Positions 1,933 through 25,596 of a stretch of DNA of 36,014 nucleotides are shown in pieces. The position numbers were made by a program, and so were the translations under genes. The notes beneath the pieces were generated by a model that saw only the letters and a list, made by a program, of their open reading frames with translations, did not search any database and had not been told where the DNA came from. The stretch covers positions 1 to 36,014 of the forward strand of contig CACWZA010000018.1 of NCBI GenBank assembly GCA_902765215.1, given 5' to 3'. This stretch comes from an uncultured bacterium (GTDB lineage: Bacteria > Cyanobacteriota > Vampirovibrionia > Gastranaerophilales > Gastranaerophilaceae). Within the stretch, counting starts at the first letter, position 1, and the number at the start of each line of letters is the position of its first letter.

Positions 1933-2029
1933 AAATAGTGCCGTTAACTCTAATATGAAAAGCCAAAAGGTTTTTCATACCTCCTCCCCAAGTCTAGTAG
2001 CCGCTCTTACAAAAGACGGCTTTTTTTTT
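1933..2029 (+). ncRNA. Candidate small RNA with anti-Shine-Dalgarno segment and terminator
   Basis: Three elements follow in order. The first is a hairpin, TATGAAAA pairing with TTTTCATA (about 1954-1980). The second is a C-rich single strand, ACCTCCTCCCC (1980-1990). The third is an intrinsic terminator, AGCCG/CGGCT with an inner TCTT/AAGA stem and a run of nine T (1999-2029). A possible promoter, TTGAGA and a T-rich -10 about 16 bases later, lies near 1902-1930. The C-rich stretch would pair with ribosome binding sites. No convincing protein precedes the terminator, so a short RNA is a reasonable reading. The 5' end is a guess. Confidence 0.35.
1999..2029 (+). terminator. Rho-independent terminator
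   Basis: AGCCG (1999-2003) pairs with CGGCT, with an inner TCTT/AAGA stem around an ACAA loop and a long T run reaching 2029. There is no plus-strand protein gene upstream for it to serve, which points to a small RNA. Confidence 0.65.
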
Positions 2030-2033
2030 ACCC

Positions 2034-2134
2034 CGAGCAGAGGTATGAGCAACGTAGTTGCGAAAGTCGAAGCACGACTCAGCGGAAACGTTGAGTTTTC
2101 GATGGGAGTGCGAGCGGTACCGTTTAACGCGAGG
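2034..2134 (+). repeat. Structured repeat A, copy 1
   Basis: About 101 bp, beginning CGAGCAGAGG and ending CGTTTAACGCGAGG. It contains three successive hairpins: GCAAC-gta-GTTGC (2049-2061), AGTCG-aagca-CGACT, and CGGAAAC-gttga-GTTTTCG. These are followed by a nearly loopless AGCGGT/ACCGTT inverted repeat. Other copies lie at 2159-2196 (truncated), 14963-15062 (degenerate) and 23437-23530. Confidence 0.75.
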
Positions 2135-2158
2135 GGTAAGGCATTGTATTATTTACCC

Positions 2159-2196
2159 CGAGCAGAGGTATGAGCAACGAAGTTGCGAAAGTCGAA
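2159..2196 (+). repeat. Structured repeat A, copy 2 (truncated)
   Basis: The first 38 bases match copy 1 except for one base in the loop of the first hairpin (GCAAC-gaa-GTTGC). The match ends after GTCGAA. The two copies are separated by a GGGGTAA...TTTACCCC inverted repeat at about 2133-2159. Confidence 0.7.
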
Positions 2197-11578: not shown

Positions 11579-11725
11579 TTTTAACCTCATTTGCTATTTA
11601 ATAAAATAATTATATCACAAAGGGATAAATATTATTCATACCTCATTCGTTTTGGAAAAAATTAAGTGTTATACATTTACCCCTCCCCCCCTGATAATTT
11701 AACTCGTTACATTTTTAATAAAAAA

Positions 11726-14508: not shown

Positions 14509-14827
14509 AGTTTTATTATAGCACTATTAACATAATTTAGTATATATAATGAGATTGAATATGATCAGGTATATAAGAATAAACATATATTTACCCCTGT
14601 CTTGAATTATTCGGGTAAGCATAGCCCTTCATTTCGTTTCAAAATTACTATTTTAATTTTGTCACTTCATCGGGCTATTTACTCTTACGGGTTTCGCTCC
14701 GCTTCGCCCTACCGAAAATTCGCTGTCAGATTTGGACATTATATTATTTTGGGATATTTTATCAGGAAGTGTCAGGGAAAACACAACAAAAAAGACACCC
14801 GAAAGGCTGTCTTATAAGTGTTTTTTT

Positions 14828-14896
14828 AACTCCTGCGTCTACCTCCCCTCTCGCAAACGATACTTAATCGTTTGCTCGGCAGAGTGCCACTGGAGC
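14828..14896 (-). repeat. Repeat B1: tRNA-Leu 5'-half copy with D-loop insertion
   Basis: Read on the minus strand it starts GCTCCAGTGGC like the real tRNA-Leu, then carries an inserted hairpin, GCAAACGAT/ATCGTTTGC with a 5-base loop (14853-14875). It rejoins the tRNA at GGTAGACGC and continues into an anticodon-arm-like stretch. A copy of the tRNA terminator follows (about 14793-14821). It is not a functional tRNA. Confidence 0.65.
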
Positions 14897-14911
14897 GTGG
14901 TATATAACGCA

Positions 14912-14948
14912 AAAAAGACACTCTTACGAGTGTCTTTAAAATGCTCCA
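14912..14948 (-). repeat. Duplicated tRNA-Leu 3' end plus terminator
   Basis: GACACTC-ttac-GAGTGTC flanked by A- and T-runs, followed by AAAATGCTCCA, repeats the terminator and 3' end of tRNA-Leu (15104-15141) about 190 bp to the left. The similarity stops after the acceptor stem. Confidence 0.7.
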
Positions 14949-14962
14949 ATGGGCAGATAAGC

Positions 14963-15062
14963 CGAGCAGAGGCACGAATAACTTTGTTGTGAGAGATGAA
15001 AAATCATAAACGGAAATGTTGAATTTTCGTTTTGATTTTGAATGGTGTCGTTTAACGCGAGG
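14963..15062 (+). repeat. Structured repeat A, degenerate copy
   Basis: It starts CGAGCAGAGG and ends CGTTTAACGCGAGG like the copy at 2034. The inside has diverged, but pairing is kept: ATAAC-ttt-GTTGT (14978-14990), ATGA-aaaa-TCAT, and CGGAAAT-gttga-ATTTTCG. Confidence 0.7.
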
Positions 15063-15103
15063 CGCATATAGTCTGGCGCAAGAGGGCTATGCCCGAGTGC
15101 AAC

Positions 15104-15130
15104 AAAAAAGACACCCTTACGAGTGTCTTT
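15104..15130 (-). terminator. Terminator of tRNA-Leu
   Basis: On the minus strand AAAGACACTC-gtaa-GGGTGTCTTT (one G-T pair) is followed by T. It begins four bases after the tRNA 3' end. Confidence 0.8.
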
Positions 15131-15134
15131 AAAA

Positions 15135-15221
15135 TGCTCCAGGCCAGACTTGAACTGGCACCGAGGGTGAACCCCGATTGGATTTTAAGTCCAACGCGTC
15201 TACCGATTCCGCCACTGGAGC
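15135..15221 (-). tRNA. tRNA-Leu (anticodon UAA)
   Basis: An 87-nt class II tRNA without encoded CCA. Acceptor arms GCTCCAG and CTGGAGC pair fully, with discriminator A at 15135. The anticodon loop CTTAAAA sits in a TTGGA/TCCAA stem and gives UAA, reading UUA and possibly UUG. A long variable arm (TCGGGGTTCACCCTCGG) and the T-arm (CCAGTTCAAGTCTGG) are intact. Three extra copies of its 5' end (14886-14896, 15291-15301, 15365-15375) and one of its 3' end lie around it. Confidence 0.93.
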
Positions 15222-23247: not shown

Positions 23248-23334
23248 GGAGAAGTGTCCGAGCGGTTTAAGGTGACGACCTCGAAAGTCGTTGTAGGGGT
23301 GACTCTACCGAGGGTTCGAATCCCTCCTTCTCCG
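23248..23334 (+). tRNA. tRNA-Ser (anticodon CGA)
   Basis: An 87-nt class II tRNA. Acceptor arms GGAGAAG and CTTCTCC pair fully, with discriminator G at 23334 and no encoded CCA. The anticodon loop CTCGAAA lies in an ACGAC/GTCGT stem and gives CGA, reading UCG. The long variable arm and T-arm (GAGGGTTCGAATCCCTC) are intact. It lies 24 bases after the phosphohexomutase gene. Copies of its 3' end recur at 23551-23569 and 23684-23699. Confidence 0.93.
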
Positions 23335-23337
23335 AAT

Positions 23338-23376: not shown

Positions 23377-23401
23377 AAAAAATCTGAAAACGGATGAGAA
23401 C

Positions 23402-23418
23402 CACAAAACGAAGTTTTG
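23402..23418. repeat. Short hairpin ACAAAAC-gaa-GTTTTGT
   Basis: A perfect 7-bp stem with a 3-base loop, just before repeat A copy 3. Its design matches the GGACAAC hairpins but the stem sequence is unrelated. Confidence 0.5.
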
Positions 23419-23436
23419 TCTAGGTTCGAACAAACC

Positions 23437-23530
23437 CGAGCAGAGGAATGAGCGAAGCGAAAGTCGAAACACGACTCGGCGGAAGTGTCGGCTTCCGACG
23501 GGAGTGTGAGCGGTTCCGTTTAACGCGAGG
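23437..23530 (+). repeat. Structured repeat A, copy 3
   Basis: It has the same ends as the copy at 2034 (CGAGCAGAGG ... CGTTTAACGCGAGG). The first hairpin is shortened to GC-gaa-GC. The second (AGTCG-aaaca-CGACT) is kept, and the third is CGGAAG-tgtcgg-CTTCCG. Its GAGGG end merges into a tRNA-Ser T-arm-like segment in which the T-loop is replaced by about 15 other bases. Confidence 0.75.
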
Positions 23531-23550
23531 GTGCAGTTGCCTTAGCAATC

Positions 23551-23569
23551 CCTCCTTCTCCGAATTTAA
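23551..23569 (+). repeat. tRNA-Ser 3'-end copy 1
   Basis: CCCTCCTTCTCCGAAT repeats the 3' half of the T-arm and acceptor arm of tRNA-Ser plus the bases following it. It forms the right edge of the segment containing repeat A copy 3. Confidence 0.75.
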
Positions 23570-23600: not shown

Positions 23601-23669
23601 TAATTCGGGAGTGATTCGAACCCTCGAGGGTTACTCCCCTCCATTCCAAAAAGATACTTAATCTTTTTG
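23601..23669 (-). repeat. Inverted tRNA-Ser T-arm fragment and repeat-B-like hairpin
   Basis: GATTCGAACCCTCG (23613-23626) is the reverse complement of the tRNA-Ser T-arm. It abuts a direct GAGGGTT, giving the 14-bp palindrome AACCCTCGAGGGTT (23619-23632). CTCCCCTCC and a hairpin follow, CAAAAAGAT/ATCTTTTTG with loop ACTTA (23647-23669). Its GATACTTAATC core is identical to repeat B1. Confidence 0.6.
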
Positions 23670-23683
23670 AAACGGAGTCCTTC

Positions 23684-23699
23684 TCCTTCTCCGAATTTA
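23684..23699 (+). repeat. tRNA-Ser 3'-end copy 2
   Basis: TCCTTCTCCGAATTTA matches positions 23554-23569 exactly. It contains the stop codon of the restriction endonuclease gene on the other strand, so it marks the left edge of the restriction-modification block. Confidence 0.7.
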
Positions 23700-24506
23700 T
23701 TTTGTGATTTTTTCGCATAAAATTCTTTTATATAAATTATTAAATGCGTAGATTGTACTGTCATCTTCTGAAAGATTTGATAAATAATTATCTACATCTT
23801 GATATGTTACAGTTAAAAATTCGTCAAAAAATCTTTTACCCCGTCTTATATTTGTACTTTCTGGGATATATATGTTACCTTTCATTTTTTTGTTTGTAAA
23901 AAAGAATAATATAGGAGTAAGTTTTTGAATGGAATGTTCATCTATATTAAATTCTTTTACTAAATAGGCATAGGTTTTTATAAATTTTCTATTTATATCT
24001 ACGAATTTACCTGTATCATGATCATCATTATATTTACATTCTAAATAATAAATTTTGCCTGTTTCTATATTCTCAAATAATAAATCTATATCGTGTTTAA
24101 AGCTATTAGATTCCCCATTTTTATTTTTTATAATTTCTTTTAGTAAATTTGGGAATTCTTTTTCCAAGTTTACATCTTCCACCTGACATTTAGATATATA
24201 ATTATCTATTAGTGAATCATTATAAGTGGATAGTTTAAAAGTATTGTTTTTTTTGCCACTATATTGTTTTATAATTCTATATTTGCCGTCAGACTCAATA
24301 AGTAATTCCATTAATGTTTCAATAAAATTACCAAACTGAATGTTCATGCTTTGTAATAAGCCGCCGAAAACTCGATATCTTCTTGGAATAAAATGAATTT
24401 TTTTACAATGTTTATCAATTAAAGAATTTATTTTCTCTATACTGCTAGTATTTTCAATAATTCTAATAACGGCATTGTTTATAAGTTTTTTAACTCGCTC
24501 ATCCAT
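23697..24506 (-). CDS. Type II restriction endonuclease, probably HinfI-like
   Basis: The 269-aa protein overlaps the end of the methyltransferase gene by 8 bp (ATGGATGA), so the two are translationally coupled. A PD-(D/E)XK nuclease core is visible: D141 in HDIDLLF, then E156-C-K158 in IYYLECKYNDDHD. The length is close to R.HinfI (about 262 aa), and the partner methyltransferase resembles M.HinfI, so cleavage at GANTC is inferred; I cannot align it here. The gene is markedly AT-rich and lysine-rich compared with its neighbours, suggesting transfer. The stop codon lies in a duplicated tRNA-Ser end. Confidence 0.75.
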   Translation of the reverse strand: MDERVKKLINNAVIRIIENTSSIEKINSLIDKHCKKIHFIPRRYRVFGGLLQSMNIQFGNFIETLMELLIESDGKYRIIKQYSGKKNNTFKLSTYNDSLIDNYISKCQVEDVNLEKEFPNLLKEIIKNKNGESNSFKHDIDLLFENIETGKIYYLECKYNDDHDTGKFVDINRKFIKTYAYLVKEFNIDEHSIQKLTPILFFFTNKKMKGNIYIPESTNIRRGKRFFDEFLTVTYQDVDNYLSNLSEDDSTIYAFNNLYKRILCEKITK

Positions 24507-25596
24507 TTTGTTTTTCCTTTTCCTTATATTGATAACGCAAATCGTTTATTGGAATAAGTGAGTCCTTAATTTTTATGTAAAAATAGTCCCAACCATTATT
24601 ATTACTTTTATTTAGGTATTTGCCACTCATTTTGTGAATAGATAAAATATCTTTATCGTCGCTTACTTTTCCGTTCTCTGTAACATAACAAATATAATCA
24701 CCTTTTGAATTATATAGTTTTTGATTATATTGTAAGTAATTATTTTCGACTAATGTTTGCATTGAAACTTTTGGAGGTTTTACCTCCAAATTTAATAAAG
24801 TTATGTCATTTATATCAGTTTTAACCTTATTAATACGTTCTTGAGCATATTTTATGTATAAAGGTTCTCTCTCAATTCCAATAAAGTTACGACCTAATTC
24901 TTTTGCAACAGCGCCAGTTGTACCCGTTCCAAAAAACGGGTCAAGAACAATATCATTCGGTTTGGTAGAAGATAAGATGATATTATACAACAGTTTTTTG
25001 GGTTTTTGAGTTGAGTGTATTTTTTTGCCATCAGAATCTTTTAATCGTTCAGAACCAATGCATATACCTATATCCCATACGCTTTTTTCTTGTTTATCAT
25101 TATTCAGATGTTTCATTGTTTTATAGTTAAAGGTATATTTTGATTTTTTACTTTTTGTGCACCATAATAAAGTTTCATGACTATTTTGAAATCTTGTACC
25201 TCCAAAATTCGGAACTGCATTCGGTTTGCTCCAAATGACATCATTTAATATCCAAAACCCCAAATTTTGCATAATATATCCCATTCGGTATATATTTTGA
25301 AAACTACCAATTACCCAAATAGAACCATCTTTTTTCAAAACCCTTTTACATTCTTTCAACCACTCAAAAGTGAACTTGTCATACTCGTTATAACTGTTAA
25401 ATTTATCCCAAGAATCTTCAACACCGCTAAATTTTGTGCCATCTGTTCTTAATAATTCACCTTCTGTTTGCATAAAATAAGGTGGGTCGGCAAATATGGA
25501 ATCAATACTTTCGCTTGCTATAGTTTTTAAAATTTCTATACAATCGCCCTGAATTATTGTATTAATCATATTCTTGTTGCTTACAACATTATCCAC
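24499..25596 (-). CDS. GANTC-type adenine-N6 DNA methyltransferase (HinfI/CcrM-like)
   Basis: The 365-aa protein has a beta-class motif order: catalytic DPPY at residues 37-40 (SIFADPPYFMQTEGELLR) first, and the AdoMet-binding loop LDPFFGTGTTGAVAKELG at about 218-235 later. Segments SIWVIGSFQNIYRMGYIMQ, WILNDVIWSKPNAVPNFGGT and HSTQKPKKLLY are typical of M.HinfI and CcrM, which methylate adenine in GANTC. The C-terminal part (about 255-355) is the extra domain of that group, with LSIHKMSGKYLNKSNNNGW. The start is GTG 25596; ATG 25569 is an alternative. The first gene of the modification-restriction operon, it is divergent from an XRE regulator with operators between. Confidence 0.9.
   Translation of the reverse strand: MDNVVSNKNMINTIIQGDCIEILKTIASESIDSIFADPPYFMQTEGELLRTDGTKFSGVEDSWDKFNSYNEYDKFTFEWLKECKRVLKKDGSIWVIGSFQNIYRMGYIMQNLGFWILNDVIWSKPNAVPNFGGTRFQNSHETLLWCTKSKKSKYTFNYKTMKHLNNDKQEKSVWDIGICIGSERLKDSDGKKIHSTQKPKKLLYNIILSSTKPNDIVLDPFFGTGTTGAVAKELGRNFIGIEREPLYIKYAQERINKVKTDINDITLLNLEVKPPKVSMQTLVENNYLQYNQKLYNSKGDYICYVTENGKVSDDKDILSIHKMSGKYLNKSNNNGWDYFYIKIKDSLIPINDLRYQYKEKEKQNG

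Follow-up and report, generated by a model that had tools for sequence, protein, structure and literature searches.

The repeat of 100-134 nt that recurs in the 36,014-nucleotide stretch of DNA analysed here (the window, which is contig C18 of the 2.15-Mb, 47-contig genome G000 of an uncultured Gastranaerophilaceae bacterium) is probably a non-autonomous small mobile element, MITE-like, that works like ERIC, RUP and the Rickettsia palindromic elements (RPE) and forms a family of the Gastranaerophilales. We found in it the features by which small mobile repeats are recognized, namely a length below 200 bp, many dispersed copies, no mobility ORF, and orthologous sites that are filled in some genomes and empty in others. 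It is best filed as a known kind of element, the small non-autonomous mobile repeat, and what is unusual about it is its elaborate fold together with its target sites. Our best reading is that the family is new, set apart from ERIC, Correia, BOX and RPE on the basis of their descriptions and of the element's own host range alone.

Copies in the Window and Their Neighbours

The original prediction had placed copies at 2034-2134, 23437-23530 and 14963-15062, with a truncated one at 2159-2196, and re-reading of the sequence bore out all these positions, as well as the arms given for the first stem (GCAAC/GTTGC, ATAAC/GTTGT and a shortened GC/GC) and for the third (CGGAAAC/GTTTTCG, CGGAAG/CTTCCG and CGGAAAT/ATTTTCG). 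Its claim that the copies share fixed ends did not hold, given that an outer stem lying beyond the quoted ends varies from copy to copy and still pairs, and therefore the true ends are not fixed in sequence. With the outer stem included, the copies span 2030-2138, 23433-23534 and 14959-15066, the first of them starting at the first base after a T9 tract. The features that matter for the argument are the following (E, covariance-model E value).

2021..2029, plus strand: T9 tract belonging to the terminator just before copy 1
2030..2138, plus strand: copy 1 in full, with its outer stem ACCCC/GGGGT (covariance model 123.2 bits, E 2e-32)
2155..2196, plus strand: 5'-end fragment of a second, tandem copy, limited to one arm of the outer stem, one arm of P2, and hairpin 1 (E 1.3e-6)
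14911..14948, no strand assigned: second version, 38 bp long and with 1 mismatch, of the tRNA-Leu 3' end and terminator, on the far side of the element
14959..15066, plus strand: full AT-rich copy adjoining tRNA-Leu (107.8 bits, E 4e-28)
15104..15141, no strand assigned: tRNA-Leu 3' end and terminator beside the gene itself
15135-15221, minus strand: tRNA-Leu gene
23319..23336, plus strand: tRNA-Ser 3' end AATCCCTCCTTCTCCGAA (gene 23248-23334)
23392..23432, plus strand: 5' flank of the "long form", GGATGA and a hairpin GAACC...GGTTC
23433..23534, plus strand: copy 3 in full; its hairpin 1 is the shortest, GC GAA GC (92.5 bits, E 8e-24)
23547..23564, plus strand: the tRNA-Ser 3' end repeated over 18 bp, to the right of the element

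The AT-rich copy has drifted in sequence (71% identity to copy 1) with its stems retained, and a flank resembling that of the long form is also present in four other genomes (G001, G006, G018 and G022).

Directly upstream of copy 1, positions 1954-2029 consist of a hairpin, 19 unpaired bases with CCTCCTCCCC, a terminator hairpin and T9 (fold z -4.9), which together look like a Yfr1-like small RNA gene; the arrangement matches the two-hairpin layout of cyanobacterial Yfr1 (PMC2190773), with the motif CCTCCTCCCC differing from the ACUCCUCACAC of Yfr1. A 6S RNA was considered at this place and dropped, there being no 6S match in Rfam and the fold being Yfr1-like.

Two other repeats were seen in the window. 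One is a second short family (14850-14880 and 23645-23672, and also L111, L164 and L213), frequently close to tRNA genes, that forms a hairpin around ATACTTAAT with co-varying arms (CAAACGATACTTAATCGTTTG, AAAAAGATACTTAATCTTTTT, CCAAAATAATACTTAATTATTTTGG). The other is longer (14604-14721, also in L010, L026 and L027), starts with GAATTATTCGGGTA and ends with CCCTACCGAAAATTC, and pieces like it elsewhere in the genome adjoin copies of the element studied here.

A Conserved Three-Way Junction

The structure was drawn by hand from an alignment of 15 copies of G000, and it is a three-way junction formed by an outer stem, P2, a variable hairpin (hairpin 1) and a long P3, with tandem G·A motifs. Going inward, the outer stem is followed by the outer tandem G·A (5'-GA...GA-3'), by GC/GC, by an internal loop AGA/GTTTAAC and by P2, which in copy 1 is GGTAT/GTACC; hairpin 1 sits on a short loop, and P3 has its own G·A pairs and a long tip. 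Of the internal hairpins first described, the paired arms stand, and their separateness does not, since the outer stem closes them into one junction.

In the 15 copies, 91.6% of the cells pair and 21 of the 31 pairs show two-sided changes, with a covariation of 0.381 against 0.146 +/- 0.015 in shuffled alignments (0 of 500 shuffles reach 0.381), and when the 3' partners are slid by 1-3 columns the pairing falls to only 30-51%. Because the structure had been drawn on these same copies, those of other genomes provide the better test. In 36 such copies, aligned with MAFFT without structure, 88.2% of the cells pair, two-sided changes occur in 23 of 31 pairs, and the covariation is 0.411, compared with 0.17 on average and 0.206 at most in shuffles, which do not give a strict probability because the 36 copies share kinship; slid controls that retain this kinship give 0.05-0.11, far below 0.411. 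A model-fitted set of 66 distinct rows agrees. The compensatory arm changes first proposed are thus real and strong, the statistical check with more copies finds covariation far above that of shuffles, and a simple duplication without covariation is rejected in both sets.

The variants themselves illustrate this, P2 appearing as GGTAT/GTACC, GGAAT/GTTCC, GGCAC/GTGCC or GCCAC/GTGGC, and hairpin 1 having stems of 2, 5, 6 or more pairs, nearly all complementary. The tandem G·A beside the outer stem is found in 59 of the 66 distinct copies, and several of the seven exceptions have Watson-Crick pairs there (GTGC/GCAC, GCAC/GTGC, GCGC/GCGC, GCGC...GTGC). As to the strand, copy 1 folds better than its own shuffles on the plus strand (z = -3.9) and not on the minus strand (z = -0.9), and outside two wobble-dominated columns G-U and A-C cells are equally frequent (23 and 21), that is, with no preference for either. 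Judged from these alignments, the fold is conserved, either as RNA or as single-stranded DNA. The original prediction of a structured RNA or a protein-recognized DNA hairpin was right about the conserved fold and missed the mobile nature of the element.

The absence of a named family also stood the test. Rfam gave no gathering-level match over the element in the window and only weak, chance-level scores at permissive thresholds for the elements tested, so that none of the known Rfam RNA families fits. An integron attC site was rejected too, its R box being GTTRRRY/RYYYAAC and the 3' end of the element being GTTTAAC.

Copy Number and Host Range

A search of G000 with copy 1 found many more, far above what chance would give; several of them form tandem arrays, and some copies are truncated. 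The covariance-model search suggested at the outset, made on this genome and its relatives, revealed many copies in both: in G000 there are 30 places at E < 0.002, 23 of them at E < 1e-8, which amount to about 23 full-length copies at 17 sites, and matches occur in 15 of the 38 genomes of the relatives set (G000 included), the other 23 having none at E <= 0.001. All but one of the eight genus genomes carry it, as do scattered members of the family, and a single weak match falls outside the family; G001 has 21 matches, and G016 has 21 copies, many of them nearly identical.

Most of the genomes compared are MAGs. A pattern scan of the genomes of 84,980 species returned 37 stretches, and where their titles name a lineage it is Gastranaerophilales, Melainabacteria, Gastranaerophilus or Cyanobacteria; the remaining titles are generic "bacterium" MAGs and one MAG labelled Bacilli, which we suspect to be mislabelled. 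As far as searched, the family appears to be restricted to Gastranaerophilales. Carriage by phages or plasmids was discarded after no element match was found in viral contigs (IMG/VR, exact pattern) or in phage and plasmid collections.

Filled and Empty Sites

The core of the small-RNA-like gene at 1954-2029 is exact in 10 of the 38 genomes, and only in G000 is this element found after its T-tract. The same site is empty in eight of them (G001, G004, G005, G006, G008, G013, G014 and G020), and in G002 a related variant (GCCGGCAGAGGC...GCCGTTTAATGCCGGC) stands after the T9 of the same small RNA; in another MAG of the lineage (L124) a different copy comes after the same small-RNA end. At a second site of this kind, G000:C6:11723, G000 and G006 have different subtypes of the element, and the site is empty in G001, G002, G003, G004 and G007. 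The gene that precedes this site (G000:C6, ~11660-11722, and orthologues L247-L253) is a strongly conserved small-RNA-like gene (AAAGACCATTAGGATGCAGAAAACAATCCACTC...) of seven genus genomes, with a promoter-like TATAAT and a terminator whose T-tract is the insertion site.

At the tRNA-Ser gene, G000 has an insert of ~230 bp made of a terminator, the long-form element and the 18-bp duplicate of the tRNA 3' end, and this insert is missing at the same place in G005. Just beyond this insertion site, at 23697-25596, a DNA methylase gene (N6_N4_Mtase, Pfam) overlaps a gene without a Pfam match, perhaps as a restriction-modification pair. At tRNA-Leu, the element lies between the 38-bp duplicates of tRNA end and terminator; an orthologous intergenic comparison through mutS2 and the tRNA-Leu neighbour met broken synteny.

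Because an orthologous site can be filled in one species and empty in another, the element is, by this genome comparison, mobile; its route of insertion is what we infer. Against mobility, it may be argued that a site filled in two species could have been inherited, with gene conversion acting on it.

A different account of the same sites is that the copies are structured RNAs serving the host, trans-acting or as 3' extensions, multi-copy by chance, the fold being kept because each copy is expressed and used. The strong covariation, the placement behind small-RNA-like and tRNA genes, and the stems retained in the most drifted copy of the window (14959) all agree with it, but most orthologous sites are empty, tandem arrays and truncated copies occur, the 23 genomes mentioned above have no match, and copies within pilin-like genes stand in either orientation, all of which makes this account unlikely.

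Insertion Sites and Flanks

The insertion sites are highly non-random. Eight of the 17 sites of G000 start 0-6 nt after a T7-9 tract, in the sense direction, and since the whole window has 30 runs of at least seven T, both strands together, a random intergenic position would be expected there in ~1% of cases by rough estimate. Starts behind T-tracts are also found in G003, G005, G006, G014, G016 and other MAGs. In addition, 11 of 62 sites have a tRNA gene no more than 110 nt away and are always on its 3' side, and eight tRNA species adjoin the element in this way (Thr, Gln, Gly, His, Ser, Lys, Val and Leu).

The terminal pairing is short, the outer stem usually having 2-7 bp. The same dinucleotide flanks this stem on both sides at 33 of 50 sites (20 CA/CA, 12 TA/TA and 1 GA/GA), compared with 14.7 expected and a maximum of 25 in 10,000 permutations, by a counting rule (skip one A on the left and one G on the right) that was set after viewing the data. 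We take this match as a lead and not as proof, because the rule is post hoc and some long-form sites share their flanks by descent, and the pattern can also be read as an end motif with U-U and A-G mismatches. At tRNA-Ser and tRNA-Leu the duplications are 18 and 38 bp long, respectively, unlike the products of a transposase that duplicates 2 bp.

Search for a Mobiliser

Among the ORFs around 65 copies, no gene family recurs except the pilin-like genes that carry copies, and a linked autonomous gene was accordingly rejected; possibly, the mobiliser is encoded elsewhere in each genome, or has been lost from some.

One enzyme that could act in this way is an IS630/mariner-type transposase mobilising a MITE, as proposed for RUP. 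The short paired ends and the TA on both sides at 12 of 50 sites (by the same post hoc rule) would suit it, but CA...CA flanks outnumber TA...TA, and no DDE_3 match is present in the eight genus genomes, G014 or G016, G018 being the only carrier that has one. With this transposase not found in most carriers, we consider such a mobiliser highly improbable and rejected the assignment to RUP.

The terminator T-tracts and the positions 3' of tRNA genes could also be the targets of a SINE-like retroelement, whose folded RNA a reverse transcriptase would copy into terminator hairpins, in the manner of group IIC introns; these introns target terminator-like hairpins followed by a T-tract. Some carriers have reverse transcriptases, but RVT_1 does not track the carriers (G001, with its 21 matches, has no RVT_1 match), Rfam gives no intron or ribozyme match, and no common 3' priming sequence was seen, so that a reverse transcriptase link was abandoned and retroposition seems quite improbable. 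A mobile intron and its structured DNA target are the subject of PMC10190682.

Co-occurrence suggested, finally, REP sequences mobilised by a RAYT (Y1 transposase), with Y1_Tnp genes in 10 of 15 carriers vs. 6 of 23 non-carriers and two Y1 genes near copies (G000:C30 and G004:C73). This is largely refuted, given that the majority of the Y1 genes inspected have classical REPs of their own on their flanks (GTAGGGTGC...GCACC and similar), which do not resemble the element; full copies of the element occur at only 2 of the 20 Y1 loci examined, with an edge fragment at one more. The element does not flank RAYT genes as their REP, nor is a REP hairpin common to both, and there is no Y1 match in G014 or in G016, despite the 21 copies of the latter; a RAYT is thus barely credible as its mobiliser. 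Classical REP/RAYT systems (GTAGGGTGC...GCACC, GTAGGTCGGC...GCCGAC and others) are present in many Gastranaerophilales genomes (L197-L216).

Copies Inside Pilin-Like Genes

G016 belongs to another genus of the family, and the majority of its 21 copies, a number in which insertion and duplication of a gene with its copy are counted together, lie in genes whose protein has an N-terminus of pilin type (FTMAEILLSLTIIGVVAAITLPSL). They separate a short start segment and its poly-G tract (11-13 G) from the mature part. These copies stand in either orientation, and the downstream frame is open through the element; the poly-G length puts the gene in frame in L089, L095 and the minus-strand gene of L090, and out of frame in others. 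The name "pilin-like" rests on the N-terminal motif, because a Pfam search gave no match to this protein. A similar gene context was found in Candidatus Gastranaerophilus phascolarctosicola (L123), and other poly-G genes of the bacterial family are without the element, some resembling element remnants.

Apart from the element, G016 (e.g., L088-L106, L108 and L217-L236) and G010 have very many poly-G tracts of 10-14 G, with 372 and 147 overlapping 10-mers of G, respectively, vs. 2-8 in the other genomes tested, and many of those read in these two genomes lie between a start codon and a pilin-type N-terminus. By sequence, the poly-G genes of G016 and G010 look like a large phase-variable family.

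Proposed Mechanism and Significance

For a small non-autonomous mobile element, these observations would be explained as follows. During copying of the element, a trans-acting enzyme would recognize its folded strand (RNA or single-stranded DNA), and compensated changes alone would persist, because source copies that lose their pairing would stop spreading. Insertion probably duplicates a short target, which would be 2 bp (TA or CA) at simple sites and, beside tRNA genes, a longer part of the tRNA 3' end. A bolder proposal, tentative and rather unlikely, is that of a new class of mobile element, in which mobility would need the three-way-junction fold (RNA or single-stranded DNA), the enzyme would recognize the 3' ends of small RNAs, tRNAs and terminators, and the element would have been recruited as an in-frame leader in phase-variable pilin-like genes.

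We suggest that the element is a clear case of a small bacterial repeat that retains a complex fold, beyond a hairpin. Its precise landing sites, at the T-tract ends of terminators and the 3' sides of tRNA genes, are testable, and since filled and empty sites lie behind the same conserved small-RNA-like genes, both the target rule and the enzyme can be sought, which is of interest given that many such repeats in other bacteria are still without a known mobiliser. In parallel, the pilin-leader copies suggest how a parasite may become coding sequence, here in a gut lineage that is related to cyanobacteria and has been little studied.

Comparison with Known Small Repeats

Group IIC introns share with the element their target, a terminator hairpin and then a T-tract, and differ from it in that the element has neither an intron core nor a linked reverse transcriptase and is only ~100 nt long. 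REP/RAYT systems are alike as folded repeats that need a trans-acting enzyme, with RAYTs present in many carriers, whereas the element has no REP-type GTAG hairpin and the RAYTs here have their own REPs. RPE, for their part, are one long palindrome, in Rickettsia.

The pneumococcal BOX and SPRITE repeats, according to the parts of PMC3049150 used here, are structured, small, likely parasitic and clustered, with BOX sometimes coding, and in all of this the element is the same; in those parts BOX is modular (A-B-C), SPRITE is itself terminator-like, and neither is described as inserted directly behind terminators. TA termini with A-G or U-U stem mispairs are tabulated for several bacterial small mobile repeats (PMC2229807, Table 1), and ERIC, RUP and Correia (NEMIS) resemble the element in these termini and mispairs and also in size, non-autonomy and short paired ends. 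They differ in being long stem-loops closed by end pairing, and RUP, moreover, is linked to IS630, a transposase family not found in most carriers here. The titles of the 84,980-species scan set the element apart from RPE by host range alone. Like the element, RPE are small and structured, and they occur between genes as well as in in-frame fusions with protein genes (PMC2229807); what distinguishes the element from them is its three-way junction with tandem G·A, its terminator-abutting sites and its occurrence in another phylum.
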